Below are positions 14,801 through 31,407 of a stretch of DNA of 37,809 bases, in pieces. Position 1 is the stretch's first letter. Each line of letters begins with the position of its first letter. The notes beneath the pieces were generated by a model. It was not told the DNA's origin. It worked only from the letters and a program-made list of their open reading frames with translations, and ran no database searches. This DNA is from a virus. The stretch is from positions 1 through 37,809 of the IMG/VR virus record IMGVR_UViG_3300032050_000364; one strand, written 5' to 3'. The position numbers were made by a program, and so were the translations under genes.

Positions 14801-15179
14801 ACAACAATTTAGTGGTGTTTTGGCTTATTTATTAAATCAATATTTGACCGCCAACGGTTATACATTAAATGATTGTTTAATAAATTCATTAAACTCAAGT
14901 TGGTTTGTTGATATTAGAATAAATGATGTGGTAATTGTTCAAACACCATTCTTTAATGGGGTGGGATTAACAGTACCTAATATTAGTTATCCGACTACAA
15001 CTACGGCTTGGTTATCAGGATTAACTGATTCATTAGAATCTTTAAAAATCTATGGATATGATTATTATTTTACAACTGAAGATACTGTTGTTGTATTTAA
15101 TAATATTTGTTCTGAAGATGATGATGGTGTTAATTTAAAAATTAATGTCGGAATAAATTTTAATATATTATGTAATTAA
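11823..15179 (+). CDS. Large putative baseplate/tail protein with Cys cluster
   Basis: An 1118-residue protein. Residues about 430-480 contain NLVLNSAYLFKSKGTRKSIE followed by TLLTLIGAPEALVEFNEYVY. This resembles the helical 'L...G..YRSKGT..AI..LL...G' region of phage tail protein I and related baseplate proteins, a tentative match. The N-terminal part is mixed alpha/beta. A beta-rich, Gly/Ser/Thr segment spans about residues 715-820. The segment ending near residue 955 has W-rich text (NTGVKYENSIFHRQKFVWRR). A Cys cluster follows at about residues 953-982, with the pattern C-x6-C-x2-C ... DCP ... ECP, perhaps disulfide- or metal-bonded. It is flanked by TAATG overlaps on both sides, so it is translated with its neighbours. 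A baseplate or tail-fibre connector role is inferred. Confidence 0.7.
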   Translation: MAIKKYTCPPQKASGAGTFSDELVGFQLVQGGGLTQGNFEFTTSVTEKVNRNFNTGVFSNPINLEGLGVNSIDESKALFENNFKVYPNFDLSQITNFTLYGSMVKRMSVSVEKIINYFPGAIESNFLGKDYTTGPSATNIIYNPQFDETSFDLSISKISNPFGVDFSVNATRNMELNEVEVSELRNMTTQYGKYSLYLNDNGYSVKRIVSTTSLTSGILTIVVEGNPFSGESTTNQTLIIRPNDLEVNKVLNESLDEVEDFLLNRNVNPKYTATFKIPKVGDDGTYYTEYQNLTWPLLGKWNLDIITGAFTNYLNKLNEVSISFDEYKTNLISRFLTTGAFNEFDTIGRKVEKVLQIYGRSFDETKKFIDALAYINSVNYNVGNDIPSQLLKNLAQTLGWRTNISPISNEELLNSVFGQKNTDKSAFSGVDSVMTPDELNYQYYRNLVLNSAYLFKSKGTRKSIETLLTLIGAPEALVEFNEYVYLADQKINMTQFDSYYAQISGGTYVQNTPALDPSYLYSIMGVTYTGFTTQVTLQDVNIGREEYPIDDNGFPSAPEDTEDYFFQIGSGWFEQTPQHRALEQVDLTNSVFTGSNPNYQTVLEPYSYGQVYLNRFREFPFMDIGFRLRPTIDNNKSWTDREIGLRSNLDGNYNARYFTSDDKLVLNVKNVDLFLNPAQGIAYDIWYMSRQYNFPIPNEGLNYVPQISQFYSISSIYQPGSVDITYSASTIIPPLFDITFNFTNVLGTISGDVSVTTGITISAGSTTGVTNVILPDDYSGLTLTSTFTNINANPSEISYGLSVVPSFISGTSETVLPTQFYTVSPINIYPNKGGIDWTEINPQPKIQTFFEFAQTFWTNTINVRDRQFNSTRTGGYPTLGSIFWRYLESEGRIGVKNDNFSYKTMIEYVNGLGDYWIRLVEQMIPATTIWNTGVKYENSIFHRQKFVWRRQRGCEIIPVPCKPCELTTNIFPVDCPVQSTECPVYPWDTNPQIQQFSGVLAYLLNQYLTANGYTLNDCLINSLNSSWFVDIRINDVVIVQTPFFNGVGLTVPNISYPTTTTAWLSGLTDSLESLKIYGYDYYFTTEDTVVVFNNICSEDDDGVNLKINVGINFNILCN

Positions 15180-16879
15180 TGTCTTGTCCTTTATCATATA
15201 GTTTAAATATAACAGGTGATTGTTCTAATATAAATGTTGGGACTTTTGAACTTAGTATTCTTGGTACGGCACCTGATTATACAATACAATGGATTAGTCC
15301 TGCATCTTATGGTACAATTGCTTTAGGACCTGGGGTTACAACATATAGTGAGAGTGGATTATCTGCCGCGACTTACACATTTAATATTATAGATAGTTGT
15401 GAACCTAATACAGTAGTTCCTGTTAATGTTTATATATCAAGTGGGACTTGTGTATCTATTGAATCGTTTGAAGATACTTTATGTGGTGAGAATAATGGTT
15501 CTTTAAGTGCTGTTACAAGTGGGTATTATGGGACAGCAACTTTTTCATTGTATGATTCTGTTTATGGTTTTATAATGTCAGCATCAACCGCTGGTAATTC
15601 TTATCAGTTTACTAATTTATCCGCAAGTACATATTATGTAATTGCTAATGATGGTGGTGGTTGTACAGGTCAAAGTGAATCTGTTATAATTAAAGACTCA
15701 AGTACCATAGATTTTGGTTTTTATGTTGTTAATGATGCGGGATGTGCGGTTAATTCAGGTAAAATATTTATAACAGGGTTAACGGGTAATCCTCCGTACA
15801 CTTATTTATGGTCTAATGGTCAAACAACATCAAGTATTAGTGGATTAACCGCAGGGTTTTATAATGTTACGGTAACTGATAGTACAGGGTGTGCGGTTAA
15901 TAAAGTAACTTCAGTTTCAGAAGTACCTAGTGTAGGTATTGCGTCTATTTTAACAACAGACCCATCTTGTTATTCTTCGGATGGTGAAATTACTGTTATT
16001 GTTACGGGCGGTACTTCACCGTATAACTTCTCCGCCTCAACATTAGGTAATTACTTTACATTTGACACTGAATACACATTTACTAATGTATCTAGTGGGA
16101 ATTATAGTATATTAGTGACTGATGCGGGACTTTGTACTACAAGTGCAACAATAACGGTCACAACTCCAGGAGGATTTTCGGTTGTATCGTTTTCGTATTC
16201 TCCAACGGTATGTGGGGCATCTGGATATGTCACGATAGTATTGAATGGAGGGTCACCACCTTACAACTACACTTTAAGTGAAACAGGTGGGCCAACTACA
16301 ACGCAAACAACAAATAGTTCAACTTGGACCTTTAATAATTTATTCTACGGTGAATATACTTTAACAATATCTGACGATGGTCCTTGTGAATATAGTAATA
16401 CCTTCACAATTGAGAATGATAATGCGTTTATTTTGTCAACAAGTGTTACAGGTACTACTTGTGGTGATGATAATGGGATAATAACTGTTGAAGTTTCAGG
16501 AGGAACACCTTCTTACACATATACTTTAGATGGTAGTGAAATTGTTATTAGTCCTTTAAGTTCGGTAACTTTTACTAATCTAACATCAGGATTACATAGT
16601 ATAAATGTTGTGGATGATAATGGGTGTACCCAAACAATATCGGCAAATGTGGCAACATCAAGTGATGTTGATTTTATTTTAGTACCGACCGATGCTTTAG
16701 GGGGTAATAATGGTTCAGTAACAGCGTTAATAACTAGTGGAGAACCACCATTCACATTAACTTGGAGCCCAAACGCTAGCGGACAAACAGGGTCAACTAT
16801 AACGGGGTTAAGTGCTGGAACCTACTCATTGACTGTTGTTGATGACAATGGGTGTGAGTCAACTACGGAAGTTATAGTT
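15179..16879 (+). repeat. Tandem SprB-like protein repeats (about 7 units)
   Basis: Degenerate repeats of about 210-235 bases each. They are visible in the protein as recurring motifs: a Cys near the start, G-G-[ST]-x-P-Y in the middle, and V-x-D-x-x-G-C at the end. The units have diverged at the DNA level, so this is an old or selected expansion, not a recent one. Confidence 0.7.
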
Positions 16880-18055
16880 AATGGTAATGTTTTATTATCA
16901 TCTTATCAAGTTTATAGCGTTTGTGATTCTGACTTATTAAATTATGGTGAAATAATTTTAAAAGGACCTAAACAGATGTTACTTGATGGGTTTTATAGTT
17001 TAAGTTCGGGGGATACAAATTGTATTTTGAATCAGGCTATATTTGAAGCATCCGTTACAGTTAGCGGAGTTACCACAACCCAAACATTTTTTACGGGAGA
17101 AACTTTAAATGATTACCCAACTACCCAACAATGGAATGATGTTATTGGAAGTTTAATATTAGGGTATGATGGTATTGGTTCTGTTATTTTTGATATTGAA
17201 ACTAATCAAATGACTATTTTAACTGATTGTAATTCCGAAATTTCATTAAATGATGCTAATATTATAATTAATATGATAATTCATTACGATATTTCGTGTG
17301 TCGCTTGTTATTGTCCCGTACCTGAATTTACCCCTATTAATTGTGAAATAACTGAAGAGTATTGTGAAACCGAAGAAACTAAAGTAATCTATGATATTAA
17401 ATGGCCTTTATTTGGAATTGATTTATTAGACAATTTGGATATTATACCTACTAGATGTCAAGAGTTACCAAATTATCCTGATTGCGGTGTTATTGAGAGT
17501 AAACAAATTGAGTTTAGAAATGCTAGAAATGCCTATTTGTCTTATATAAATAATTATCTTTTAGCCCTTTCAGTGGGTAGAATTAGTTATGCCCAATCCA
17601 TTCCTGTTGTATTACCACCATCTAGATACGAGGGTGATTATTTTTACAATGGGCCTGAAAATGTTGGGTGGACGCAATTCAAGGTAATACAAGGATGTAG
17701 TTGTAAAAAAATATTTGAGGAAAATGGTTTAGTTGGGCCTCAATATGACTTTGATATCGTATGGTTAACTGAAGTCCAATCATATGGTGATTTACCATTA
17801 ACAGGTAATTTTGGTGAATTTTGTTTTGTTATAGACGATGGTGTTTTTTATAAATGGGACCCTAATACAAATACGTGGATTAATGAAAGTTCACCAATAA
17901 TAGGTTATCCTGATATTGAAGATTGTGCTGCGGTACAAAGAGCTCAAAGAGATTATTATCTTTTATCATTAAACCAACTTATGTTGGTTTGGAGGTCTTT
18001 TACTTGGTCGTCATTTCATATCCCATTATACCAAATTTTTAAATATAATAGTTAA
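15179..18055 (+). CDS. SprB-repeat fibre/adhesin protein
   Basis: A 958-residue protein. Residues about 1-567 are about seven degenerate Ig-like units of 70-80 residues. Each follows the SprB-repeat pattern: Cys, then N-G-x-I/V-x-V, then G-G-x-P-P/S-Y-x-Y, then L-x-A/S-G-x-Y-x-V/I-x-V-x-D-x-x-G-C. The clearest unit has GNPPYTYLWSNGQTTSSISG. SprB repeats are best known from the gliding-motility adhesin of Flavobacterium and from type IX-secreted proteins. The C-terminal 390 residues differ: a Cys-rich linker (CVACYCPVPEFTPINCEITE), a helical part and a final segment with YKWDPNTNTWINESS. The likely role is a host-contact fibre. It is preceded by a TAATG overlap and followed by a 168-aa gene 11 bases downstream. 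The SprB resemblance is seen in the sequence; the receptor-binding role is inferred. Confidence 0.75.
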   Translation: MSCPLSYSLNITGDCSNINVGTFELSILGTAPDYTIQWISPASYGTIALGPGVTTYSESGLSAATYTFNIIDSCEPNTVVPVNVYISSGTCVSIESFEDTLCGENNGSLSAVTSGYYGTATFSLYDSVYGFIMSASTAGNSYQFTNLSASTYYVIANDGGGCTGQSESVIIKDSSTIDFGFYVVNDAGCAVNSGKIFITGLTGNPPYTYLWSNGQTTSSISGLTAGFYNVTVTDSTGCAVNKVTSVSEVPSVGIASILTTDPSCYSSDGEITVIVTGGTSPYNFSASTLGNYFTFDTEYTFTNVSSGNYSILVTDAGLCTTSATITVTTPGGFSVVSFSYSPTVCGASGYVTIVLNGGSPPYNYTLSETGGPTTTQTTNSSTWTFNNLFYGEYTLTISDDGPCEYSNTFTIENDNAFILSTSVTGTTCGDDNGIITVEVSGGTPSYTYTLDGSEIVISPLSSVTFTNLTSGLHSINVVDDNGCTQTISANVATSSDVDFILVPTDALGGNNGSVTALITSGEPPFTLTWSPNASGQTGSTITGLSAGTYSLTVVDDNGCESTTEVIVNGNVLLSSYQVYSVCDSDLLNYGEIILKGPKQMLLDGFYSLSSGDTNCILNQAIFEASVTVSGVTTTQTFFTGETLNDYPTTQQWNDVIGSLILGYDGIGSVIFDIETNQMTILTDCNSEISLNDANIIINMIIHYDISCVACYCPVPEFTPINCEITEEYCETEETKVIYDIKWPLFGIDLLDNLDIIPTRCQELPNYPDCGVIESKQIEFRNARNAYLSYINNYLLALSVGRISYAQSIPVVLPPSRYEGDYFYNGPENVGWTQFKVIQGCSCKKIFEENGLVGPQYDFDIVWLTEVQSYGDLPLTGNFGEFCFVIDDGVFYKWDPNTNTWINESSPIIGYPDIEDCAAVQRAQRDYYLLSLNQLMLVWRSFTWSSFHIPLYQIFKYNS

Positions 18056-18616: not shown

Positions 18617-19600
18617 ATGGTTAATAATTTAAAATTTGTTTCAGCACAACCTGATGTTCCATATTTTCATTGGCAAATAAAAGTCTACGTACATAATTTT
18701 ATTGAAAAGGGTATAAATCCAAATAACATTCACGTTCTTTTAGCGATGGTTCACGGAAAAAAAGAACCTAGTGAAGAATCATTACGTTTAAAAGATATGG
18801 GTATAAATGTTCATCATTATGTTGATGAGAGAGAAAAAAAACATTATATCCCTAACATTAAACCGTTTTTAATTTATAAATGGCTAGAAGAATATCCTGA
18901 ATATGGTAAATCTTTTTTTCTGCATGATGCTGACATTATTTTTAGAGAGTTACCCGACTTTGATAAATTAATGGGAGATGATGTAATTTATCTTTCCGAT
19001 ACTGTAGGTTATATTGGGTACAATTATATTATGGATTGTTGTGAACGGTATGAGAAACAACACCCAAATTCCGAAAAAGGTCAGTTAATTCAAGAAATGG
19101 TTGATATTGTTGGGATTGACGTTGAATGTGTTAAATGTAATCAACTTAATTCAGGTGGAGGACAATATATAATAAAAAACACTGATTCAGAAATTTGGAA
19201 AAAAATATATGACGATTGTGTTCCATTATATGACCAAATGTTAAATTATCAAAAGAGATTCCCTATAAGTCCTGGTGAGATTCAGTTTTGGACCGCTGAG
19301 ATGTGGTCAGTATTATGGAACTTATGGTATTTTGGTAAAGAAACTAACATTACCAATGATTTAGATTTTTCTTGGGCGACTGATACTGTTAATTTATATG
19401 AAAAAAAACCAATACTTCATATGGCTGGAGTGACTCAAGATTTAAGAAATACAAAATTCTATAAAGGGGATTATATTAATCAGGACCCACTTCAAAAACT
19501 TGAAGAAAATCCTAACTATTTTAATTATATAGATAAACATAGCTCAACCATTAAATATATTGAAGTTATGAAGTCATTAATTAATAAAAAAACCAAATAA
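18617..19600 (+). CDS. Putative GT-A-type glycosyltransferase
   Basis: A 327-residue cytoplasmic-type enzyme, with no signal peptide or membrane segment. It has the key GT-A elements in order: an N-terminal strand and helix with a basic, aromatic segment (YFHWQIKVYVHNFIEKG); the DxD motif as FFLHDADIIFRELP, with D104-A-D106; NSGGGQYIIK at about 178-187, the acceptor-site 'NSG' element; and a late His in ILHMAG at about residue 272, a common metal ligand. In known GT-A enzymes the DxD binds the metal and the nucleotide sugar. The acceptor is unknown. It lies between fibre genes, close to Thr-rich repeat proteins, so decoration of phage fibres is one option; modification of host surface glycans is another. 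The fold assignment comes from motifs; the substrate is inferred. Confidence 0.7.
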   Translation: MVNNLKFVSAQPDVPYFHWQIKVYVHNFIEKGINPNNIHVLLAMVHGKKEPSEESLRLKDMGINVHHYVDEREKKHYIPNIKPFLIYKWLEEYPEYGKSFFLHDADIIFRELPDFDKLMGDDVIYLSDTVGYIGYNYIMDCCERYEKQHPNSEKGQLIQEMVDIVGIDVECVKCNQLNSGGGQYIIKNTDSEIWKKIYDDCVPLYDQMLNYQKRFPISPGEIQFWTAEMWSVLWNLWYFGKETNITNDLDFSWATDTVNLYEKKPILHMAGVTQDLRNTKFYKGDYINQDPLQKLEENPNYFNYIDKHSSTIKYIEVMKSLINKKTK

Positions 19601-19627: not shown

Positions 19628-20485
19628 ATGTCAGAAAACGTTAATGAATGTTCACCTATAACCATTTTCCCTATGGGTGTGGTATGTGTTGTGACTAATC
19701 CTAGTAAACCTAGAGCATCTAACGGTACCGCAACTTTAATTATAACAGGAGGGACACCACCATATAATATTGTGTGGGAAAATGGGAATAATACAGTTTC
19801 AATAGATAATCTGTCGGAAGGGTCTTATTCGGCAACAATAACTGATTATTATGGTGATTTTATTATTAATACAACTTGTGTTCTAACAACTCAGGGGACA
19901 ACTACTACCACAACAACATCAACAACAACATCTCAACCAACTTATGATTTTTGTATGGTTATTTCATATTACGATTATGTTGGTAAACAAGTTACTGAAG
20001 TTAACTTGCTAATTCACTTTAACCCTAATGGATTATATGACGGATACCCAACTTGGATTTCAGATGATATGTTATATTCTATAATATGGGATACAGTTGA
20101 CAACAGATGGGAATTGGTTGACACATTAACTAATTTAGTTGTTATAAATAATAACCCAGCATACCCACCATTAAGTGGTTGGAACATATTAGGTGTTGAT
20201 GGAAGTGTAACTGTTTACGAAGGTGAATGTCAAAATAATGATAATTTAACCATAAGTGCAAGTGTTAATTATAAAGGTTGTGATTACAGTTGTTTAAATT
20301 CTATCACAATTACTGGTGGCGGAGGGGTACCACCTTATCAATACTCCATAGATGGGGGGGTTACTTGGGTGAGTAGCCCAATATTCCAAGGAATATGTAA
20401 TGGGTTATATTCACCACAAATAAAGGATTCATTGGGTACTATCGTCGCTAGCAATAATATAACAGTTATAGGAATACCTTGCTAA
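19628..20485 (+). CDS. Fibre-like protein with SprB-type repeats and poly-Thr linker
   Basis: A 285-residue protein. Residues about 20-95 form an SprB-like unit (GGTPPYNIVWENGNNTVSI, then LSEGSYSATITD). Residues about 91-103 are a threonine run, TTTTTTSTTTS, likely a flexible or glycosylated linker. A middle domain, about residues 105-200, has aromatic strands (FCMVISYYDYVGKQ, YSIIWDTVDNRWELVD). A C-terminal SprB-like unit has GGGGVPPYQYSIDGGVTW and ends in a Cys. No catalytic motif is present. It starts after an A/T-rich spacer and ends 30 bases before the 811-aa fibre gene. It is likely an accessory fibre or tip protein. The repeats and linker are seen directly; the role is inferred. Confidence 0.65.
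   Translation: MSENVNECSPITIFPMGVVCVVTNPSKPRASNGTATLIITGGTPPYNIVWENGNNTVSIDNLSEGSYSATITDYYGDFIINTTCVLTTQGTTTTTTTSTTTSQPTYDFCMVISYYDYVGKQVTEVNLLIHFNPNGLYDGYPTWISDDMLYSIIWDTVDNRWELVDTLTNLVVINNNPAYPPLSGWNILGVDGSVTVYEGECQNNDNLTISASVNYKGCDYSCLNSITITGGGGVPPYQYSIDGGVTWVSSPIFQGICNGLYSPQIKDSLGTIVASNNITVIGIPC
19898..19933 (+). repeat. Poly-threonine linker coding repeat
   Basis: ACN codons, mostly ACA and ACT with two Ser interruptions, encode a Thr run between the SprB-like unit and the middle domain of the 285-aa protein. The same linker style recurs in the 811-aa gene and in the 695-aa minus-strand gene. Confidence 0.65.
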
Positions 20486-20515: not shown

Positions 20516-22951
20516 ATGAGTTATATAATAAAAAATACATCAGCGTTAATTAATAGTAGGTTAACTGATACGGGAAGACAAAGGTTATCCGAAGGTAATT
20601 TTAATATTTCATATTTCCAAATTGGGGATAGTGAGGTGTCATATGATGTATTACCAAGTTCGTATAACCAATATAATACGATGATATTGGAACCAGCATT
20701 TAATGCTCAAAATTCAAGTGGAGTTCCTCAATCAAACAAACAAAATGTTAAATATCCTTACTACGTTGATGGTTTTACGGGTAATACTTATGGGATTCCT
20801 TATATGGATTCAGTAGTAAGTCCTGTATATAATAGGGCGGAGCCTAGAGGTTTTTTTACGGGAATTACGGTTAATGATTTTACATCTTGGAGTGCTTATA
20901 CTGATAATAGTCATACTATTAACTCTAATTATATAGTTGATATGACTACATTAAATGGGTCAAATATCATTGAAATTATTTATTCTGGTTGTAACCTAAA
21001 TATAGGTAGATTACCTCAAGTTGGTGATTTTATTACAATATATTATGATGGTATGGCTAAACAAGATTGTGGGTGTGGCACTGAAACTACCACAACAACC
21101 ACAACCACCACTATACCACCAACCACAACGACAACGACAACAATACCTTGTGAAACAACTACTACTACAACAACAGTGTTCCCAACACCGACCCCTGTAG
21201 AAGTACCTAATTGTGCGATGTCAATGTATAGCTGTTATCCAATATTAACATATAGGATTATTGATGTATGTCATAACCAAATCACATTAGATAGACCTAC
21301 ACCTGACTTTACTTATTTGTTGGGGAATTGTTATTCCCGAACTTTAATATACCCACCAGCAATGGTACCTTTTTATGATAGTGAAACTCCCTTACAACAT
21401 TTTGGAATTGATGTGATTGATTTTGAATCAGTTTGTAATACTGACCAATTAGATGTTAAGATATGGAATATGAATATTCCTTGGTCAGAAACTTTAGCTG
21501 GTATTAATAATTCGGTATATAAAGGATTTAGTGACTTTGGTTCGGTTGATTATATTGGAACTAAAGAATATTTGGGGTATCAATCAAGTTCAGGTCAGAC
21601 CGATACTGATTCGGTATATTTTTATAATTCATTTGATGAAAAGGTTGTGGTAACACCTGAAGAACAAAAGGCTATTGCTATTATTCATTACACTAATCAA
21701 ACTATTGATTTTGTTTATGGTGAAAAATTCGCATTAGAACCATTAGACCCGAATGTACCTGAAGATACTTTAGGACAAGCAAGAAATTTTAAAATGTGTT
21801 TACCTTGGTTAATGTGGCATAAAAACCCTGATTGTTGTCAAGGGCAATGTTTTTATGTGGACCCTCCAGGATTTGAGGAGTTTGATTTATTTCAAGTAGA
21901 ATATATTGAGTCTAAGAAAAACATTGATATGAATTTACCTGGTATTCGTTACTATCATCTTTGGGATACTAACCCTAATAGTAACGGATTACCTAATAGA
22001 ATTGGGAAAGTATTTCCTGACCACAAAATTGTGGTTATAGACGATGAGGAGATTATAGCTGCAATGTCGTATAAATCAAATAGAAACTGGACATTACCAG
22101 CACCTAAAACATCTTTAGTTACACCTAATACTTGTGGAAGTGAAAGTCAATCAACCCAAGGAGTTTTAACGGGTAATACTGAATATATGTATGTTACTTA
22201 TAGATTAAGTAATGATATGTCATTTACCAATTCATTACATTGCAATTATTACATTAAACAACAGGGTCCTAATCTAAATTGTAATGATATTTCATCACAA
22301 AATGTTGCGGTGAGATTCGGAGGTGAATTTGGGTGTTTAAATTACCAACCGTACAATCCATCTACAACAACTACCACAACAAGTGTCTATACAACAACTA
22401 CAACAACCATTTGTCCGACGAATTGTGATATTACAACAGGATATTTAGGAACCAAATTTGAAATAATTTGTCAAAAAGTAACTGGTGATGGAAGACCTGA
22501 CCCTACGGATTGGAAAATTATTGATTTCACCGATTTATTATCTGCAACCACAATTAATGGTCACATTACTCAAGATGGATTGACAGGTACAACATTTGTG
22601 ATTACTGATGATTTATATAACAATGCCCCCACTTATGATTTAAGTGATTATCTTGATTTAACAACACTTGGTGATACTGGTACCCAACTTAATTTTGGTG
22701 ATGAGTTTTATTTTTATGGAACACTTGAAACGGATATTCAAGCAACTATATATGAGATGAGGTACAAAATTAATTTAAGTCAAGCCGAATTCCAAGCAAG
22801 TTCAAACCCTGGATGGGTCAATGGTACAACATCTTACATAACTGAAGTTGGACTTTATAATTCTAAAAAAGAGCTTATGATTATATCAAAATTGCAATCA
22901 CCAACACCAAGACAAGGGATTCAGCAATTTGTTATAAAATTTGATTTTTAA
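20516..22951 (+). CDS. Large tail-fibre/collar-like protein with poly-Thr linkers
   Basis: An 811-residue protein. The N-terminal head has IINSRLTDTGRQRLSEGN-type text (NSRLTDTGRQRLSEGNFNIS), then YFQIGDSEVSYD, a pattern I associate with attachment domains of myovirus structural proteins. Two threonine-run linkers interrupt it: residues about 190-227, a long run ending PTPTP, and about 615-636. The intervening domain is Cys- and aromatic-rich (CCQGQCFYVDPPGFEEF) and contains a Trp-rich stretch (CLPWLMWHKNPDCC). The C-terminal domain (about 640-811) is beta-rich and ends LQSPTPRQGIQQFVIKFDF, typical of a virion beta-sandwich. The start codon is preceded by an A/T-rich palindrome (ATTTATAAAT, 20501-20510). 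It ends 4 bases before the RuvC-like gene. The structural role is inferred. Confidence 0.65.
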   Translation: MSYIIKNTSALINSRLTDTGRQRLSEGNFNISYFQIGDSEVSYDVLPSSYNQYNTMILEPAFNAQNSSGVPQSNKQNVKYPYYVDGFTGNTYGIPYMDSVVSPVYNRAEPRGFFTGITVNDFTSWSAYTDNSHTINSNYIVDMTTLNGSNIIEIIYSGCNLNIGRLPQVGDFITIYYDGMAKQDCGCGTETTTTTTTTTIPPTTTTTTTIPCETTTTTTTVFPTPTPVEVPNCAMSMYSCYPILTYRIIDVCHNQITLDRPTPDFTYLLGNCYSRTLIYPPAMVPFYDSETPLQHFGIDVIDFESVCNTDQLDVKIWNMNIPWSETLAGINNSVYKGFSDFGSVDYIGTKEYLGYQSSSGQTDTDSVYFYNSFDEKVVVTPEEQKAIAIIHYTNQTIDFVYGEKFALEPLDPNVPEDTLGQARNFKMCLPWLMWHKNPDCCQGQCFYVDPPGFEEFDLFQVEYIESKKNIDMNLPGIRYYHLWDTNPNSNGLPNRIGKVFPDHKIVVIDDEEIIAAMSYKSNRNWTLPAPKTSLVTPNTCGSESQSTQGVLTGNTEYMYVTYRLSNDMSFTNSLHCNYYIKQQGPNLNCNDISSQNVAVRFGGEFGCLNYQPYNPSTTTTTTSVYTTTTTTICPTNCDITTGYLGTKFEIICQKVTGDGRPDPTDWKIIDFTDLLSATTINGHITQDGLTGTTFVITDDLYNNAPTYDLSDYLDLTTLGDTGTQLNFGDEFYFYGTLETDIQATIYEMRYKINLSQAEFQASSNPGWVNGTTSYITEVGLYNSKKELMIISKLQSPTPRQGIQQFVIKFDF
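21086..21198 (+). repeat. Poly-Thr/PTP linker coding repeat (first)
   Basis: Dense ACN codons encode three threonine runs broken by I-P-P and I-P-C-E, then a short P-T-P-T-P. The codon mix is varied (ACC, ACA, ACT, ACG), so the Thr identity is conserved without a uniform DNA repeat. Confidence 0.7.
22363..22410 (+). repeat. Poly-Thr linker coding repeat (second)
   Basis: A shorter run of ACN codons, broken by S-V-Y, in the same 811-aa gene just before the C-terminal domain. Confidence 0.65.
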
Positions 22952-22955
22952 AATT

Positions 22956-23564
22956 ATGAGTAAAACCTTAAAAGAAAGCCCAAAAGTTTTGGGTTTAGAT
23001 ATCTCAACTCGTACCATAGGGTGGGCGTTATTTGATATAAAAAATCAAGAATTATTAGAATTGACTCACATATCGCCAAGACCAAAATCAAAAGATAATG
23101 GTGAGAATAGTAAAATAAAAGAACTATTATTAAAGGCCGAGATATTTAGAACCAAATTACTTGAATATAAAAATTTAGGTATCGTTAAAGTCATTATAGA
23201 AGAACCATTATTGAATTCAAACAATATTAATACGGTCCAAACCCTATTAAGATTTAATAGTTTTCTTTGTAAAGAAATATATGATATGTTAGGGATTGTA
23301 CCTGAGTTTATTTCTACGTATAATTCAAGAAAGTTTGCATTTCCTGAACTAGTCCAACAAAATGATAAAGGGAAATATGTTTTATTTGGTGGTTTACCAA
23401 AAGATATTGATAAGAAAATGATTATATGGGAAAAAGTTGCAAAACTTGAACCACAAATTCAATGGTTGTATACTAAGAACAATACCCTTAAAAAAGAAAA
23501 TTTTGACCAAACAGATGCCTATTGTTGTGTCCTTGGTTATATGAAACAACTTGAAGTTTGGTAA
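22956..23564 (+). CDS. RuvC-like Holliday-junction resolvase/RNase H-fold nuclease
   Basis: A 202-residue protein starting at ATG 22956 (MSKTLKESPKVLGLDISTRT). A TTG five codons upstream is less likely and overlaps the preceding gene. It has the RNase H-fold acidic set: D15 in LGLDIST; E82-E83 in KVIIEEP; and D184 with D187 in ENFDQTDAYC. This order and spacing match RuvC-type resolvases. In T4 the resolvase is the unrelated endonuclease VII, so this phage would use a different solution. It may trim branches before packaging. It is the last plus-strand gene of the structural block. It converges head to head with the 79-aa minus-strand gene with no intervening base (TAA ends 23564; the facing TAA occupies 23565-23567). 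Confidence 0.7.
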   Translation: MSKTLKESPKVLGLDISTRTIGWALFDIKNQELLELTHISPRPKSKDNGENSKIKELLLKAEIFRTKLLEYKNLGIVKVIIEEPLLNSNNINTVQTLLRFNSFLCKEIYDMLGIVPEFISTYNSRKFAFPELVQQNDKGKYVLFGGLPKDIDKKMIIWEKVAKLEPQIQWLYTKNNTLKKENFDQTDAYCCVLGYMKQLEVW

Positions 23565-23804
23565 TTATACACTTTCAGTAAACCATTCTGGACCTGATAA
23601 AATAGTAATCATTTCTGAGTTATTATACGGACCTTCCATATAACTTAAATCAATAAGAAATGTAGGGTCAGTTTCCGATTGCCATCTTATAAAAGTTTTA
23701 GTACCGTCAATACTAAATCCCAATTCAGAAATACTTCTTTCTAAAATTTGATTAAAATCAACTTTGCTAAGTTCTGATGTTAAAATAATTAAATACTTTC
23801 TCAT
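23565..23804 (-). CDS. Hypothetical 79-aa protein
   Basis: A small, mixed-charge protein ([20 protein letters not shown] at the N-terminus) with no recognised family. It is supported by an ATGA overlap with the end of the giant repeat gene (its ATG is at 23804-23802; that gene's TGA is at 23803-23801), implying translational coupling. It has no signal peptide, membrane segment or Cys motif. It may act with the giant protein, for example in assembly, but this is unproven. It is the last gene of the minus-strand cassette. Confidence 0.5.
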   Translation of the reverse strand: MRKYLIILTSELSKVDFNQILERSISELGFSIDGTKTFIRWQSETDPTFLIDLSYMEGPYNNSEMITILSGPEWFTESV

Positions 23805-26800
23805 AAACCAAATCTATCTTTTTCTGAATTAAAATTATTGGTGACCTCAGTAGAGCTTAATTCTCTGTTATATATTCTAATAATAGCGATATAACCTTGG
23901 AAATATTCTTGAGGCGAACCTGCTTGGAACCTACCAACCCGTAAACTAGAAACGTTTGTAACTGTCCCAAAAGGGTCCCCATTACTACCAACTGAAGTAC
24001 CGTTAAGATATAAATTACCACCACTTGGGCCGTGTGTTGCAACAACGTGAGCCCATGTATTTGCGGTTAATACTGTTGGTGATGATGTATAATTAATTGC
24101 CGAACCATCAGCAATAAAATTAATATTTCCCGATGTATTAATTCTCAATCTATAACCGTTATTACTATCTTTTGAAATTATATTAGGGCTATTAGTAAAC
24201 CCTGTTGGTCTAATAAACGCCTCAACAGTACAACCCGTTGATAATTGTATTGATGCGTTATTACCATCTAACCCATCATCACCAGCACCATCAAAAAGTA
24301 AACTACCATAAACTTGAGGTATATTTGGAAAATACGTAACACCCGAACTTAAGACGGTATCGTTATTATTTGTTGTTAAATCAAGTAAATTGGTACTCCC
24401 TGAATAAGAATTTTCATTACCCGCATCATACCATAAAACTAATCCTGACTGAGTTAGATTACAACTTGGACAACACCCCACGGCTGTTACAGACCCAGCA
24501 CCTGAACGGGATGGGGTAGTACTGGAACATACATATACAGGACTCTGAAAATTATTTATAATAATTGGTGATGTTGCGGCCTCATCACAACAAGGGGTAA
24601 ATGTAAATGTTGTATTCGCAGGAAATGAGTTTGACACCAATTCATACTGAAGACAACTACAAGTTGGTGTTGGTGTTGGTGTTCTTGTTGGAGTAACGGT
24701 TCTTGTAGGTGTATTTGTTGGTGTTCTTGTTGGAGTAAGAGTTCTTGTTGGTGTATTAGTAGGTGTTCTTGTTGGAGTAACGGTTCTTGTAGGTGTATTG
24801 GATGGTGTTCTTGTTGGAGTAACGGTTCTTGTAGGTGTGTTGGTAGGTGTGTTGGTAGGTGTATTTGTTGGTGTTACAGTATTAGTTGGGGTATTAGTTG
24901 AAGTTCTTGTAGGTGTATTTGTTGGTGTTCTTGTTGGAGTAACGGTTCTTGTAGGTGTATTTGTTGAGGTATTGGTTGGTGTAACGGTTCTTGTAGGTGT
25001 ATTTGTTGGTGTATTTGTTGAGGTATTGGTTGGTGTGTTAGTAGGTGTCCTTGTAGGTGTTACAGTATTAGTTGGGGTATTAGTTGAAGTTCTTGTAGGT
25101 GTGTTGGTTGGAGTATTTGTTGGAGTAACGGTTCTTGTAGGTGTATTTGTTGAGGTATTGGTTGGTGTAACGGTTCTTGTAGGTGTATTTGTTGAGGTAT
25201 TGGTTGGTGTGTTAGTAGGTGTCCTTGTAGGTGTTACAGTATTAGTAGGTGTCCTTGTAGGTGTTGCAGTATTAGTAGGTGTTTGAGTGTTACTTGGTGT
25301 TGGTGTAGGAGTTACATCATCAGTACAGATTATTAAAGTTGCGCTTGATAACGTACCAGCATCTACTACCGCAAAATCTTGGATATATAATGACCAAGTA
25401 CCATTTGAATTTGGTGGTTGTATTCCGTCAAATACAGTAAACTCAGGTGAGTTACCAGGAGCCACCAAAGGAGGTACTGGACAAGGGGCACTAAACGTCA
25501 TTGAGTTTTGTATTGTAGAGTTATTACCAAATGTACCTGAACTAAATCCATTCCAATCAGGCGTTGAGAAAGACGTTAATGTAACTGTTACATTAGTTGC
25601 GGTTGTAACACCACCTATTCTACCCGCAATTAATGAATAAGTTGAATTATCAGGTGCAACTAAAACCATCCCAACGTCCCCAACCGCATTGTGAGAATAA
25701 CCACTAAGTACAAATTTAACATCTGTAATTGGTGTAACTAAACCTGATACTGTAAAAGTTATAGGGTATACTGATGCGGTTGTATTATCGTTAATTATAA
25801 TATTTGTCTGATTTGAAGGGAATGAAAAACAGAATTGTGAAGGGGTTTCAGTTAATGTAGGTGTGTTTGTAGGTGTTGATGTTCTTGTAGGTGTATTTGT
25901 AGGTGTTGATGTCCTTGTAGGTGTGTTTGTTGATGTCCTTGTAGGTGTTGATGTCCTTGTAGGTGTGTTTGTTATAGTGTTAGTAGGTGTTTGGGTAGGT
26001 GTTTGGGTAGGAGTTGGTGTATTAGTTGGTGTTCTTGTTGGCGTCACCGTATTGGTCGGGGTGTTAGTTGAGGTTCTTGTCGGAGTGTTAGTTGGTGTAG
26101 ATGTTCTTGTAGGTGTATTAGTCGGAGTATTTGTATTAGTCGGAGTATTAGTCGGAGTATTAGTTGGTGTTGGTGTTGGAGTTGGTGTTGGACATATACC
26201 TCCAGAACAAAATCCACCTATAGTGAATTCTAATTTAGGACTACTAACAATAGGATTACTACCACAAACTCTAAATGAATCATTACCTGGATTTGTAACA
26301 CCTGTAACGGTAACATTTGAACAATCAACATAACTATATGTGATAAAACCCTCTATTGTTGTATCTAAAAAGTCAATACAATTACATGGGTATTGAGTTG
26401 GTGTTGGTGTTACAGTATTAGTTGAAGTGTTAGTTGGTGTCTGAGTATTTGTTTGAGTTGGTGTCTGAGTACTTGTTTGAGTTGGTGTTACAGTATTTGT
26501 AGGGGTATTAGTTGGTGTATTCGTTGCGGTTCTTGTAGGGGTATTAGTTGGTGTGGATGTTCTTGTAGGGGTATTCGTTGAGGTATTCGTAGGAGTGTTA
26601 GTAGGAGTGTTAGTAGGAGTGTTAGTAGGAGTAACGGTATTTGTTGGTGTATTCGTTGCGGTATTTGTTGGTGTATTTGTTGAGGTGTTAGTAGGTGTAA
26701 CAGTATTTGTTATCGTGTTTGTTGGCGTATTAGTTGGTGTATTTGTCGGTGTTATAGTGTTAGTAGGAGTATTAGTTGAGGTATTCGTTGGAGTATTAGT

Positions 26801-29053
26801 AGGTGTAACAGTTCTTGTTGGTGTGTTAGTCGGAGTTTGAGTTGAAGTAATAGTTGGAGTTACGGTATTTGTAGGAGTGTTTGTTGGTGTCTGAGTTAAT
26901 GTGTTCGTTGGTGTTAAAGTATTAGTCGGTGTATTGGTTGGAGTTTGTGTTATTGTACCTGTAGGTGTAATTGTGTTTGTAGGTGTGTTCGTAGGGGTTT
27001 GAGTAATAGTGTTGGTTGGTGTTAAAGTATTTGTAGGTGTATTTGTAGGGGTGATAGTAGATGTTACAGTATTTGTAGGTGTATTGGTTGGTGTTTGAGT
27101 TGATGTATTAGTAGGTGTTATAGTGTTAGTAGGTGTAACAGTTCTTGTTGGAGTATTAGTAGGTGTGTTAGTCGGAGTTTGAGTGGAAGTATTAGTTGGC
27201 GTTACAGTATTCGTTGGAGTATTTGTAGGTGTGTTGGTCGGAGTTTGGGTTGAAGTGTTTGTTGGGGTTACAGTATTAGTTGGAGTATTCGTTGGTGTGT
27301 TAGTTGCAGTTCTTGTTGGTGTAACGGTATTCGTTGGAGTATTTGTTGATGTGTTCGTAGGTGTTTGAGTTGATGTGTTTGTTGGGGTAATAGTATTTGT
27401 CGGCGTATTAGTTGGTGTATTTGTTGATGTGTTTGTAGGTGTATTTGTTGGAGTACCTGTGTTAGTGGACGTATTAGTCGGAGTTTGTGTTGAAGTTATT
27501 GTCGGTGTAACAGTATTTGTAGGTGTATTTGTTGGAGTTTGAGTTGAAGTATTAGTTGGTGTGACAGTATTCGTAGGTGTATTAGTTGGTGTTTGAGTGG
27601 GGGTCTCAGTATTAGTTGGGGTTATCGTGTTAGTTGGCGTTTGAGTAGGTGTTTCAGTATTAGTTGGGGTTATGGTATTAGTTGGCGTTTGAGTAGGTGT
27701 CTCTGTGTTTGTTGGTGTGATTGTGTTTGTCGGTGTGACTGTGTTAGTTGGTGTTTGAGTAGGTGTTTCAGTGTTAGTTGGAGTAATAGTGTTAGTTGGG
27801 GTAATAGTGTTAGTTGGTGTTATTGTGTTCGTAGGGGTGTTCGTGGGAGTTTCAGTGTTAGTTGGTGTTATTGTGTTCGTAGGGGTGTTCGTAGGGGTCT
27901 CAGTATTGGTTGGTGTTATTGTGTTCGTAGGGGTGTTCGTAGGGGTCTCAGTATTGGTTGGTGTTATTGTGTTAGTCGGCGTTTGAGTAGGGGTCTCAGT
28001 ATTGGTTGGGGTTATCGTGTTAGTTGGGGTAGGTGTAGGAGTTTCAGTGTTAGTTGGTGTTATTGTATTTGTTGGGGTGTTCGTAGGGGTCTCAGTATTG
28101 GTTGGTGTTAATGTGTTCGTTGGAGTGTTCGTTGGAGTTTCAGTATTAGTTGGGGTAATGGTATTAGTTGGGGTATTAGTAGGTGTTTCAGTCGGAGTTG
28201 GGGTAATGGTATTAGTTGGCGTTTGAGTAGGTGTTTCAGTATTAGTTGGAGTTATTGTATTAGTTGGTGTAATTGTGTTAGTCGGTGTTTGAGTAGGAGT
28301 CTCAGTATTAGTAGGTGTTAATGTATTCGTAGGTGTGTTCGTAGGGGTCTCAGTATTGGTTGGTGTTATTGTGTTAGTCGGTGTTTGAGTAGGAGTTTCA
28401 GTAGGTGTATTCGTCGGAGTTTCAGTAGGTGTGTTCGTTGGTGTTTCAGTAGGTGTATTTGTTGCAGTTTTTGTTGGTGTGTTCGTCGGAGTTTCAGTTG
28501 GTGTGTTAGTTGGTGTTTCAGTTGGAGTGTTAGTTGGCGTCTCAGTTGGAGTGTTAGTAGGGGTCTCAGTTGGTGTATTTGTTGCAGTTTTTGTTGGGGT
28601 GTTAGTAGGTGTTTCAGTTGGGGTGTTAGTAGGTGTTTCAGTTGGGGTGTTAGTAGGTGTTTCAGTTGGGGTGTTAGTAGGTGTTTCAGTTGGGGTGTTA
28701 GTTGGAGTTTCAGTTGGGGTGTTAGTTGGAGTTTCAGTTGGGGTGTTAGTTGGTGTTGGAGTTGAAGTTGGAGTCGGTGTTGGAGTCGGTGTTGGAGTTG
28801 GGGTTGGGGTTGGGGTCGTAATTAGTGATATACAATAAACAATTTCAAATCGTTCACAACCATCATTTGTTATAATTTTAATACCAACTGCAGGTGCGCT
28901 ATCAAATTGACTGGGTAATAAAAATGTTGTACTTGGAGGTACTAAAGTATTAATTGTTGCAATTAGAACACATTGATTACCAAATACGTCACAAACGTAA
29001 ATCTGATATGGGTTTGGTAAACCTGATATGTTACTTATTTCAATTGAAGTCAT
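23801..29053 (-). CDS. Giant mucin-like Pro/Thr-repeat protein with P-domain-like and LamG-like modules
   Basis: A 1750-residue protein; about 65% of it is PT-repeat. Layout: N-terminal beta domain (residues 1-79), paralogous to the 71-aa protein upstream; repeat block 1 (about 80-885); a Cys-containing insert (about 886-953, PCNCIDF...CSGGICP); block 2 (about 954-1064); a P-domain-like beta-sandwich (about 1065-1245, ending [10 protein letters not shown] and [13 protein letters not shown]); block 3 (about 1246-1463); a Cys-rich module (about 1464-1535); and a LamG/concanavalin-like domain (about 1536-1750, [38 protein letters not shown]). PT blocks suggest an extended, possibly O-glycosylated stalk, and LamG and P-like folds often bind glycans. 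No signal peptide is visible. A long phage adhesin or surface fibre is the best inference. Confidence 0.75.
24663..25300 (-). repeat. Pro/Thr-repeat block 3 (coding)
   Basis: A PT array of about 215 residues, rich in Arg ([10 protein letters not shown]), linking the P-domain-like module to the C-terminal Cys-rich and LamG-like domains. It is the most basic of the three arrays. Confidence 0.85.
25860..26193 (-). repeat. Pro/Thr-repeat block 2 (coding)
   Basis: A shorter PT array, about 111 residues. It has frequent Arg in place of Asn or Glu ([10 protein letters not shown]). It joins the Cys-containing insert to the P-domain-like module. Confidence 0.85.
26398..28815 (-). repeat. Pro/Thr-repeat block 1 (coding, about 2.4 kb)
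   Basis: The minus strand encodes T-P-T-N/E/Q-type units; on the plus strand the DNA appears as G/T-rich units such as GTTGGTGT. Sub-arrays are visible: T-P-T-E-T-P-T-N near the N-terminal end, [11 protein letters not shown] in the middle, and [13 protein letters not shown] further on. Units are multiples of 3 bases, so copy-number changes keep frame. Confidence 0.9.
28794..28815 (+). other. Potential G-quadruplex in the repeat gene's template strand
   Basis: The plus strand has GGGG at 28800-28803, 28806-28809 and 28812-28815, spaced by TT, with a GG at 28794-28795. This could form a four-tier or mixed G-quadruplex. It lies in the template strand at the start of PT block 1, just after the N-terminal domain coding. 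It may be a by-product of Pro/Thr codons. Confidence 0.4.
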
Positions 29054-29104: not shown

Positions 29105-31192
29105 TTATGCGAGACACTTTTCACAGGATGCTGTAACGGATATAATCGGTGAACCTAAAATTATGTTAGGGTATGTAATTGAACAAAAACTAATTGAACC
29201 TTCATCAAAAGTATATGGTGACGGTAATGATTCACCACAACATGGAGTATATTCAAATGTGATAGAATTGCCTTTTGTTGTATTAACAGTATAAGTATAA
29301 CACTCAGAAAAAGTTGTACAAACAGCACAACCACCTAAATTAGATAATCCTAAAGGACCAACATTTAAAATTATATTATTAACCCCGATTACTTGAGTTG
29401 TAATCCCAACATATGAAATACATTTAGTTAATCCGTCAACAGTTGAATAGAATACTTGATATTGTTCTAAAGTCCCTCCTGATGGGATAGTTACGTTATT
29501 AGTGGTATAATACATTGTTCCATTGTAACAATCTTGAAATTGTTTACTCACAGGACAATTAATCATTTCATTAACCGTATTAAATGTTACATCACCAGAG
29601 TATTGACACGGCCTTTCAACAATACCCGAAGGTGTTGGTGTTATTGTAGGAGTCGGGCTTGGTGTTGGCGTAAACGATAAAATAGTTGCACCAACATTTA
29701 CACCTCCACAAACATTTGTTGGACTTGGTGTTGGGGTAGGTGTGGGTGTTGTTGTTTGAGTTGGGGTGGGGGTAGGGGTTGGCTCAAACTCGCAATTAAA
29801 TAACGATTCAAAATCAAAAGTATCACAAGGTGACGTTGTTGTAGTTGTGGTTGAACAAGTTCCTTCAGAAAAATATTCTGAAAGTAAATCAGGACAAACA
29901 CTAACACAAGGTGATTTACCTGAAAGAAAGCAAGGACCGTCTAAAGACATCGCTAAACACCATTGAGTGTTACCTGTTGAATAATAAATAAATAAACCAT
30001 TAGATTCCCCAACCCAATAAGGTTTACCGTTATGTAAACCACTCTCAATGTAGTTATCATCATATGATATATTTTCCGTATTTGAAACACAATAACCTGA
30101 TGTGTTACATATATCACCACAACAATCACTTTCTTCAGAACAATTTTCTTCTTGTAAAACAAATTCACTTAAAACACTTTCACCTGAAACTATTATATCA
30201 TCTTGATAATAATAAAGTGTTGGTGACATTGGTGTTTCGCAGAATTCATATGAAACACAAGTTCCACTACATTCAGAATAAACATATCCTGAAGGACAAG
30301 TATAACCTGATGAATCGTAATTACCTAATGTGTCTTGAACTATAGTAAATTCTGTTTGGCCTGATGTTGTGAATATTATATAAGGTTCTAATGCCGCATA
30401 AGTCGTTAAACCAGTTAATGTTGCTAAATCACCATCATAAATCTCACATCCAAAACCACCTTGACTACCAGCATTTAATCCGTAAACCTCCAAAGTATGG
30501 TCACCTGCACCAATCTCAACGGGGTATACGTTCCATCTTTTAAAGGATTGACCGTTACTCGTTGTGAAAGGATTAGGAGGTAAAGAAGTATCTACAATAA
30601 GATTACCATCTAAGACAAGTCTAAAATCATCATCAGCCCCAATTCCAACCCAGTATGTTTTTGTTTCAGTAATCCCTGATAAACAAGATGAAAATCCTAA
30701 CCATTTGTTGAATGGTGGTGCACTTCCACCTGTTGTTGGCCAAATGGCACATCTATTTAAAGGGCCTTCAGAAATAGTGTCACCAACATTTTCCCACGAA
30801 TCAACACCTGTAACTATAGTATATGTTGCACCTGAACCACATTGACAAAATCCTGGTTGGTAAAAATAACTACCAAATTGTGAATACACAAAAAATGATG
30901 TGGCAACCGCCGATAATGGTGATACAGGAGGTGTTGCGGCTGTTGTAATTTCTCTGTAGCAAGATGTTTCGTCATAAACGACCCATCCGTCACCCGCACA
31001 AATACTACAATCTGCGGAAGTTGTCATACAATAACAGTAATACCCTCTATCTGTAAATTCATTTACAACAGGGGTTGACTCACAATCTAAAAAACCATCA
31101 ATAAAGACGGTATTATCGGTGTATAGGGTATTACCTGTTGATGAACTAATATCATTAGGGTCAATTCTGACTAATAAACAATTACAACTCAT
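29105..31192 (-). CDS. Cys-rich multidomain surface/fibre protein
   Basis: A 695-residue protein with many cysteines. Residues about 170-260 resemble a PA14/CBM-like beta domain (TYWVGIGADDDFRLVLDGNL, then a Trp and VEIGAGDHTLEVYGLN), a fold that often binds carbohydrate. Residues about 385-425 hold a small aromatic module (NGKPYWVGESNGLFIYYSTG). Near residues 452-540 lie a Thr run and PT linkers ([35 protein letters not shown]). The C-terminal about 70 residues form a Cys-rich module (TPCCGES..., ending ASCEKC) that resembles the module before the LamG domain of the 1750-aa protein (TPCCDEA..., ending CCPSC). It joins the 71-aa gene by TAATG (31194-31190) and lies 51 bases before the giant repeat gene. 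It is probably part of the same surface structure; the domain calls are motif-based. Confidence 0.65.
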   Translation of the reverse strand: MSCNCLLVRIDPNDISSSTGNTLYTDNTVFIDGFLDCESTPVVNEFTDRGYYCYCMTTSADCSICAGDGWVVYDETSCYREITTAATPPVSPLSAVATSFFVYSQFGSYFYQPGFCQCGSGATYTIVTGVDSWENVGDTISEGPLNRCAIWPTTGGSAPPFNKWLGFSSCLSGITETKTYWVGIGADDDFRLVLDGNLIVDTSLPPNPFTTSNGQSFKRWNVYPVEIGAGDHTLEVYGLNAGSQGGFGCEIYDGDLATLTGLTTYAALEPYIIFTTSGQTEFTIVQDTLGNYDSSGYTCPSGYVYSECSGTCVSYEFCETPMSPTLYYYQDDIIVSGESVLSEFVLQEENCSEESDCCGDICNTSGYCVSNTENISYDDNYIESGLHNGKPYWVGESNGLFIYYSTGNTQWCLAMSLDGPCFLSGKSPCVSVCPDLLSEYFSEGTCSTTTTTTSPCDTFDFESLFNCEFEPTPTPTPTQTTTPTPTPTPSPTNVCGGVNVGATILSFTPTPSPTPTITPTPSGIVERPCQYSGDVTFNTVNEMINCPVSKQFQDCYNGTMYYTTNNVTIPSGGTLEQYQVFYSTVDGLTKCISYVGITTQVIGVNNIILNVGPLGLSNLGGCAVCTTFSECYTYTVNTTKGNSITFEYTPCCGESLPSPYTFDEGSISFCSITYPNIILGSPIISVTASCEKCLA
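29763..29782 (+). other. Potential G-quadruplex in the 695-aa gene's template strand
   Basis: Plus-strand G runs at 29763-29766, 29768-29772, 29775-29778 and a GG at 29781-29782, with loops of 1-2 bases. It lies within the PT linker coding of the 695-aa gene. It may be a by-product of Pro codons. Confidence 0.4.
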
Positions 31193-31407
31193 TATGGTAT
31201 TAAATTTTCTTCAACCGAGCAACCGTTATTATCCACAATTTTTAAATTATATGATGATTGACCATCCAATAATGTAGGTACGTTAAATACATAAGGAACA
31301 GTTGAAATTGTACTTATATATATGCAAGTTGTGATTGGGTCATCACATATGTATATATCGTATGGTTGAACTCCCGAAATTGTGTTTATGGTTATTTGCG
31401 TCGGCAT
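31192..31407 (-). CDS. Small beta-type protein, stand-alone copy of the giant protein's N-terminal domain
   Basis: A 71-residue protein: MPTQITINTISGVQPYDIYI, then CDD..TTCIYISTI and VDNNGCSVEE. It aligns by eye with residues 1-70 of the 1750-aa protein ([33 protein letters not shown]). Shared features are ISG near the start, the Y-[DQ]-I-Y-[IV]-C-D strand, a following Cys and a late N-[ND]-G-C. It is probably a paralogue by duplication. It may be a subunit that packs with or caps the giant protein. It is first in the minus-strand cassette, and an inverted repeat (31406-31429) overlaps its start. Its TAA overlaps the ATG of the 695-aa gene. Confidence 0.65.
   Translation of the reverse strand: MPTQITINTISGVQPYDIYICDDPITTCIYISTISTVPYVFNVPTLLDGQSSYNLKIVDNNGCSVEENLIP

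Follow-up and report, generated by a model that had tools for sequence, protein, structure and literature searches.

The usual picture of a phage fibre is a rigid trimeric beta structure. Flavobacterium phage immuto has genes annotated as tail fibre and tail spike (gp101-104) in the slot that separates its tail genes from the primase gene. The gene described here holds a comparable place, between a tail cluster (gp6 to the gene of an 811-aa protein) and a primase gene, on the strand opposite to that cluster. Its product, a giant built around a threonine-alternating stalk, has the appearance of a host-attachment fibre taken to an extreme, with relatives of up to 5,472 residues. A search of open-access literature found no description of such stalks in phages.

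The phage and its tail locus

The DNA analysed, a window of 37,809 nt (the whole stretch, from IMG/VR record IMGVR_UViG_3300032050_000364), represents part of a virus record and, judging from its genes, belongs to an uncultured T4-like phage. The product of its gp6-like baseplate wedge gene (289-2127, plus strand; phrog_219 match) is related to proteins of Flavobacterium phage immuto (26.5% identity), an uncultured 484-kb phage and Microcystis phage Mel-JY01. Close relatives are contigs of 304-318 kb with gp6 proteins 79-86% identical to that of the window, which makes jumbo genomes likely for this clade. The host is probably a member of the Bacteroidota, as suggested by the relation to immuto, the scarcity of Shine-Dalgarno-like stretches (upstream of 1 of the 23 genes in the window) and the SprB repeats, known from Bacteroidota, that Pfam detected in two tail-cluster proteins (15179-18055 and 19628-20485). 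The moraphages are a published lineage of aquatic jumbo phages for which Bacteroidota hosts were predicted (PMC12619734); the clade of the window could be this lineage or a different one. Promoter and terminator scans of the window gave no excess over shuffled sequence.

The last gene of the tail cluster encodes the 811-aa protein (20516-22951, plus strand), which is weakly related to tail-region proteins of cultured T4-like phages. Both this protein and that of 19628-20485 contain homopolymeric Thr stretches, a type of Thr linker unlike the stalk. A RuvC/RNase H-like gene (22956-23564, plus strand), assigned from its motif only, is the convergent neighbour of the giant gene and served as synteny anchor, with 476 related stretches in viral contigs. 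On the minus strand, the giant gene is accompanied by the co-directional gene (29105-31192) of a 695-aa protein that is rich in Cys and has short TPTP stretches. A sequence-based guess that this neighbour is PA14-like found no support in Pfam. The first gene of the minus-strand unit encodes a stand-alone copy of the giant's N-terminal module (N-module), of 71 aa (31192-31407).

Architecture of the giant and its stalk

The giant gene (23801-29053, minus strand) is an open frame of 1,750 aa from an ATG. It is unbroken in four other IMG/VR contigs (L002-L005), which are 100% identical to the window over 20.5 kb; because no SNP separates them, they are perhaps not fully independent samples and may partly share source material. 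The initial annotation had read from this frame three PT-repeat blocks making up about 65% of its length, a Cys-containing insert, a P-domain-like sandwich and a C-terminal LamG-like domain. All of these hold, the frame included, and both named domains score above the Pfam cut-offs. That description did not include the N-terminal module, how strictly the threonines alternate, or the family to which the protein belongs.

From the N-terminus, the protein begins with a module of 78 residues (1-78; 28820-29053), predicted to be a beta-sandwich, followed by stalk block 1 (residues 79-887; 26393-28816) and a first Cys-containing insert (residues ~888-955; 26189-26392), which resembles modules of 18 ORFs in related loci. 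Stalk block 2 (residues 956-1065; 25859-26188) leads to the P-domain-like module (residues 1066-1246; 25316-25858), which matches PF01483 with 25.3 bits over a short best stretch (curated cut-off 21, E=1.6e-5); 8 more viral contigs encode homologues of it (33-70% identity). Stalk block 3 (residues 1247-1464; 24662-25315) is followed by a second Cys module (residues 1465-1530; 24464-24661) shared with the C-terminus of the 695-aa neighbour (BLASTP E=3e-5). Neither Cys module had a match in Pfam. The C-terminal LamG/ConA-like domain, which we call the tip (residues 1531-1750; 23804-24463), is a clear Laminin_G_3 match (PF13385, 92.8 bits against a curated cut-off of 27.6, E=3e-26). Its nearest solved sequence is that of an S-layer protein (4qvs_A, E=4e-6), and its PHROGs matches are confined to generic virion families or families of unknown function. 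The Laminin_G_3/ConA-like fold family includes binders, enzymes and proteins that are neither. The first 15 residues of the giant hold no basic residue and a strong hydrophobic core is absent, so that a signal peptide is not apparent and the giant is not an obvious secreted protein.

In the stalk, every second position is Thr or Ser. Block 1 contains 404 consecutive alternate threonines with zero exceptions, block 2 has Thr at 55/55 of these positions, and block 3 at 107/109, with Ser at the other 2. When the same residues were shuffled 2,000 times, the longest alternate-Thr run never exceeded 17. Pro (39%) and Asn (28%) prevail between the threonines, followed by Ser, Arg, Glu, Ile, Gln and Val, with Gly at 0.4%; Asp, Phe, Trp, Tyr, Cys, His and Met never occur there. 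The charge of block 1 shifts from acidic (Glu) at its start to basic (Arg) towards its C-terminus. If fully extended, the ~1,130 stalk residues, at 0.31-0.36 nm each, would measure a computed 350-400 nm.

At the DNA level the repeat is not uniform. Adjacent Thr codons are identical in 30.5% of cases (32.5% by chance), third positions are near random, and the 27 copies of TPTNTPTN have 25 DNA spellings. Thr has thus been kept while synonymous positions were scrambled, which means that the repeat is old in DNA and that the alternation is maintained by selection on the protein. Asp occupies 1 of the 3,876 x positions in the stalk tracts of the clade, as against 132 for Glu, and is more frequent than Glu in the sequence flanking these tracts. 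Since Asn is common at the x positions and is one transition from Asp, Asp seems to be counter-selected between the stalk threonines. One idea is that this reflects escape from a host glycosylation sequon, as the O-glycosylation motif of Bacteroidota, D-[S/T]-hydrophobic, requires Asp before Ser or Thr (PMC12871550). However, D-T-P would be a poor fit to the sequon, and the cytoplasm is where phage proteins are synthesised.

A modular family of stalk proteins

Searches of viral contigs returned 12 loci with the P-domain, 80 with the RuvC-like protein and 80 with the N-module. Long relatives were scanned with Pfam in pieces, as whole-protein scans missed domains, probably because of the composition. 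The N-module is carried by 111 different phage ORFs, 109 of which have it at the N-terminus; it occurs either alone or before unrelated C-terminal parts. The AlphaFold model is a six-strand beta-sandwich (pLDDT 83.8, pTM 0.71) whose confident structural matches are restricted to uncharacterised proteins of uncultured phages. Matches in the PDB are weak and mixed (best E 0.03, TM ~0.5), and one of the weak ones is a T9SS C-terminal domain (E 0.03). As no PDB match is confident, it is the position and recurrence of the module that suggest its role as a probable virion anchor. In the N-module loci (L094-L173), it stands alone or heads many unrelated C-terminal parts, and several of these phages carry more than one copy. 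In some N-module/stalk proteins (in L028, L056, L101 and L029), the C-terminus consists of short peptide repeats, for example LLLQTGDYIILQDGTGFIELQ, in place of a folded tip.

In nearly all of the 80 RuvC-anchored loci, a minus-strand protein gene converges on the RuvC-like gene, its product having an alternating stalk of 0 to 1,517 residues. A homologue of 3,005 aa (L007) has an N-module 77% identical to that of the window giant, a P-domain, a LamG tip and more beads; beside it lies a homologue of the 695-aa neighbour (56-58% identity), and the stand-alone N-module gene also has its counterpart there (69% identity). In L006 the P-domain is kept (72% identity; PF01483 at 26.5 bits) and the C-terminal domain is different from LamG. 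L019 carries a LamG tip, PF13385 being above its cut-off both there and in L007. Thus, phages whose RuvC-like neighbours are 89-90% identical (90% in L006) have either LamG (window, L007, L019) or something else (L006) at the tip. A further relative (L012) ends in a DUF5122 propeller. Judged by such sequence comparisons, the giant is one member of a large modular family in which the N-module recurs and stalk length and tip are exchanged. The combination of a stalk with binding domains in one phage gene, as first described, is therefore not unique to this gene.

The longest version is encoded by a more distant relative, IMGVR_UViG_3300005527_000042 (G001, L411-L412), a contig of 155.7 kb whose gp6 is 55% identical to that of the window. 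Its stalk protein (43073-59491 of the contig, plus strand) has 5,472 aa, 45% of them Thr. Alternating stalk accounts for 4,923 residues (90%), which would reach ~1.5-1.8 micrometres by computation if extended, and one run of 3,437 residues is unbroken when isolated Ser is tolerated in place of Thr. Stretches of the sequence of this gene are present on several other contigs. The gene lies within a run of T4-like baseplate and tail genes, between genes homologous to those of the 1118-aa and 811-aa proteins in the window, and this position is the best evidence that stalk proteins are parts of the virion. A cultured carrier was sought in a phage collection with the P-domain, N-module, RuvC-like and 811-aa proteins and with stalk DNA, which gave no match.

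Function and comparison with known systems

Membership of the giant in the virion fibres is plausible from its gene context, and the genes do not distinguish between attachment to head, collar or tail. We consider it likely that the giant is a virion-attached modular adhesin, in the manner of a long tail or baseplate fibre. The N-terminal beta-sandwich would dock it to the particle, and a stiff, extended and nearly Gly-free Thr-x-Thr-x stalk would span 350-400 nm, with the Cys and P-domain modules as beads. The LamG/ConA-like tip would then bind a glycan or glycoprotein at the cell surface. The exchange of stalk length and tip, seen as a module pattern among related phages, would shift reach and target as the anchor persists. 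Synteny with the tail cluster, the common N-module, tip swapping, the lack of a signal peptide, the two Pfam domains and the selection on the stalk together argue for this role. They agree with the fibre or adhesin first proposed for this gene; the accompanying suggestion of mucus binding finds no support. A more tentative proposal, which we regard as possible but somewhat doubtful, is that strict Thr-x alternation constitutes a new, length-tunable type of virion stalk, a defined extended chain, perhaps glycan-clad, which stands in for trimeric beta fibres and, at up to ~1.7 micrometres in related phages, exceeds the length of the particle.

The giant could instead decorate the head or collar as a whisker, tethering free virus particles to particles, polysaccharide or a mucus-like gel, and not serve as a receptor-binding fibre. 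Loose tethering would suit a stalk with a lectin-type domain, the minus-strand unit is set apart from the tail operon of the window, and chains of 4,923 residues are longer than a baseplate fibre requires. But the stalk gene of G001 is inside a baseplate/tail run and the immuto slot holds tail fibre and spike genes, and we regard the whisker as improbable. It is very unlikely that the giant is a non-structural protein, such as a decoy on the cell surface or secreted, or a superinfection-exclusion factor, acting during infection. The separate convergent transcription unit near replication-type genes (primase) would fit such a protein, but the missing signal peptide, the tail-cluster location of a relative's gene and the occurrence of the N-module in many small putative fibre proteins do not.

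An assembly artefact, or a recent slippage expansion without function, could be argued from the difficulty of assembling repeats and from a possible common data source of the four identical contigs. It is opposed by the scrambled synonymous positions with invariant Thr, by the same architecture in different sequence in L006, L007 and L012, and by the recurrence on several other contigs of sequence from the gene that encodes the 5,472-aa protein. The codon scrambling and this recurrence refute artefact or slippage as the main cause, and we give the explanation hardly any weight.

Compatible with the fibre role, the alternating threonines might be O-glycan acceptors, to which a phage GT-A enzyme would add a coat that stiffens or hides the fibre. 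The regular spacing of hydroxyl residues would favour such a coat, as would the putative GT-A glycosyltransferase gene with an HDAD motif in the tail cluster of the window (18617-19600, plus strand). The AlphaFold model of its product (pLDDT 86) has GT-A enzymes as best PDB matches (E ~3e-5, TM ~0.4). Homologues of this protein are also known from phages of Gram-positive bacteria (Lactobacillus, Enterococcus and Staphylococcus), in some cases encoded beside or near a gene annotated as major tail protein. In the RuvC-anchored set, all 9 distinct loci whose alternation covers 130 residues or more have the glycosyltransferase. However, its association with long stalks is not significant (Fisher p=0.09, relatedness ignored), and no homologue accompanies the 5,472-aa stalk on the G001 contig or the stalks of several other long-stalk contigs, records that may be fragments. 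Glycosylation by a linked enzyme is thus rejected as a general rule. In addition, Asp is avoided and the D-[S/T]-x sequon is missing from the stalk, the three in the giant (residues 51, 897 and 1565) being all outside it. A glycan-clad stalk is, from the sequences, possible but unsupported, and an O-glycan coat added by the phage enzyme appears unlikely.

These results bear on the term mucin-like, which had been applied to the giant. With mucins and PTS domains it shares an extended Thr/Pro-rich region flanked by Cys-containing modules, and the Thr/Ser/Pro-rich composition over ~65% of its length justifies the comparison. It differs from them in alternating strictly where mucin PTS regions are irregular, in having little Ser and in carrying no known signal or other sign of O-glycosylation. 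A likeness in sequence is provided by TPTN-rich linkers of bacteria (Herpetosiphon, Anaerolineae, Roseiflexaceae and FCPU426; Chloroflexota and others), in which the same (TPTN)n alternation lies between domains. Those linkers are shorter, with 111 Thr in the longest unbroken strict run among the matches listed as against 404 in the giant. They also contain Asp (165, with Glu 115, among the matches listed, or 3.2% of x positions), which the stalk of the giant lacks. Ig-like decoration proteins, by which phages adhere to mucus, may be alike in weak carbohydrate tethering. Pfam gave no Ig-like domain in the giant, whose N-module is a small predicted beta-sandwich with weak and mixed structural matches. 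For cyanophages S-RIM44 and S-H9-2, the likeness is confined to a related Laminin_G_3 (PF13385) domain with 25-41% identity.

Long repetitive genes of uncultured phages are readily written off as low complexity, but those described here are strongly selected and form one modular system. Two questions become open to test: do long stalks enlarge the encounter radius, and do the alternation and the Asp avoidance stem from an unusual fold or modification? The giant resembles T4-type tail fibres and spikes, such as immuto gp101-104, in its place after baseplate genes and before primase, and in keeping its N-terminus while the C-terminal tip varies. It differs in its opposite strand in the window and in its sequence, as PHROGs gave no sequence or profile similarity to T4 long or short tail fibre proteins, and no recognised trimerisation or fibre fold was found in it. 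A family of stalks with Thr at half of the residues under selection, tens to ~4,900 residues long and provided with swappable tips, would let phages tune their reach, and its Thr-x stalk suggests a physical design unlike that of the known trimeric beta fibres.
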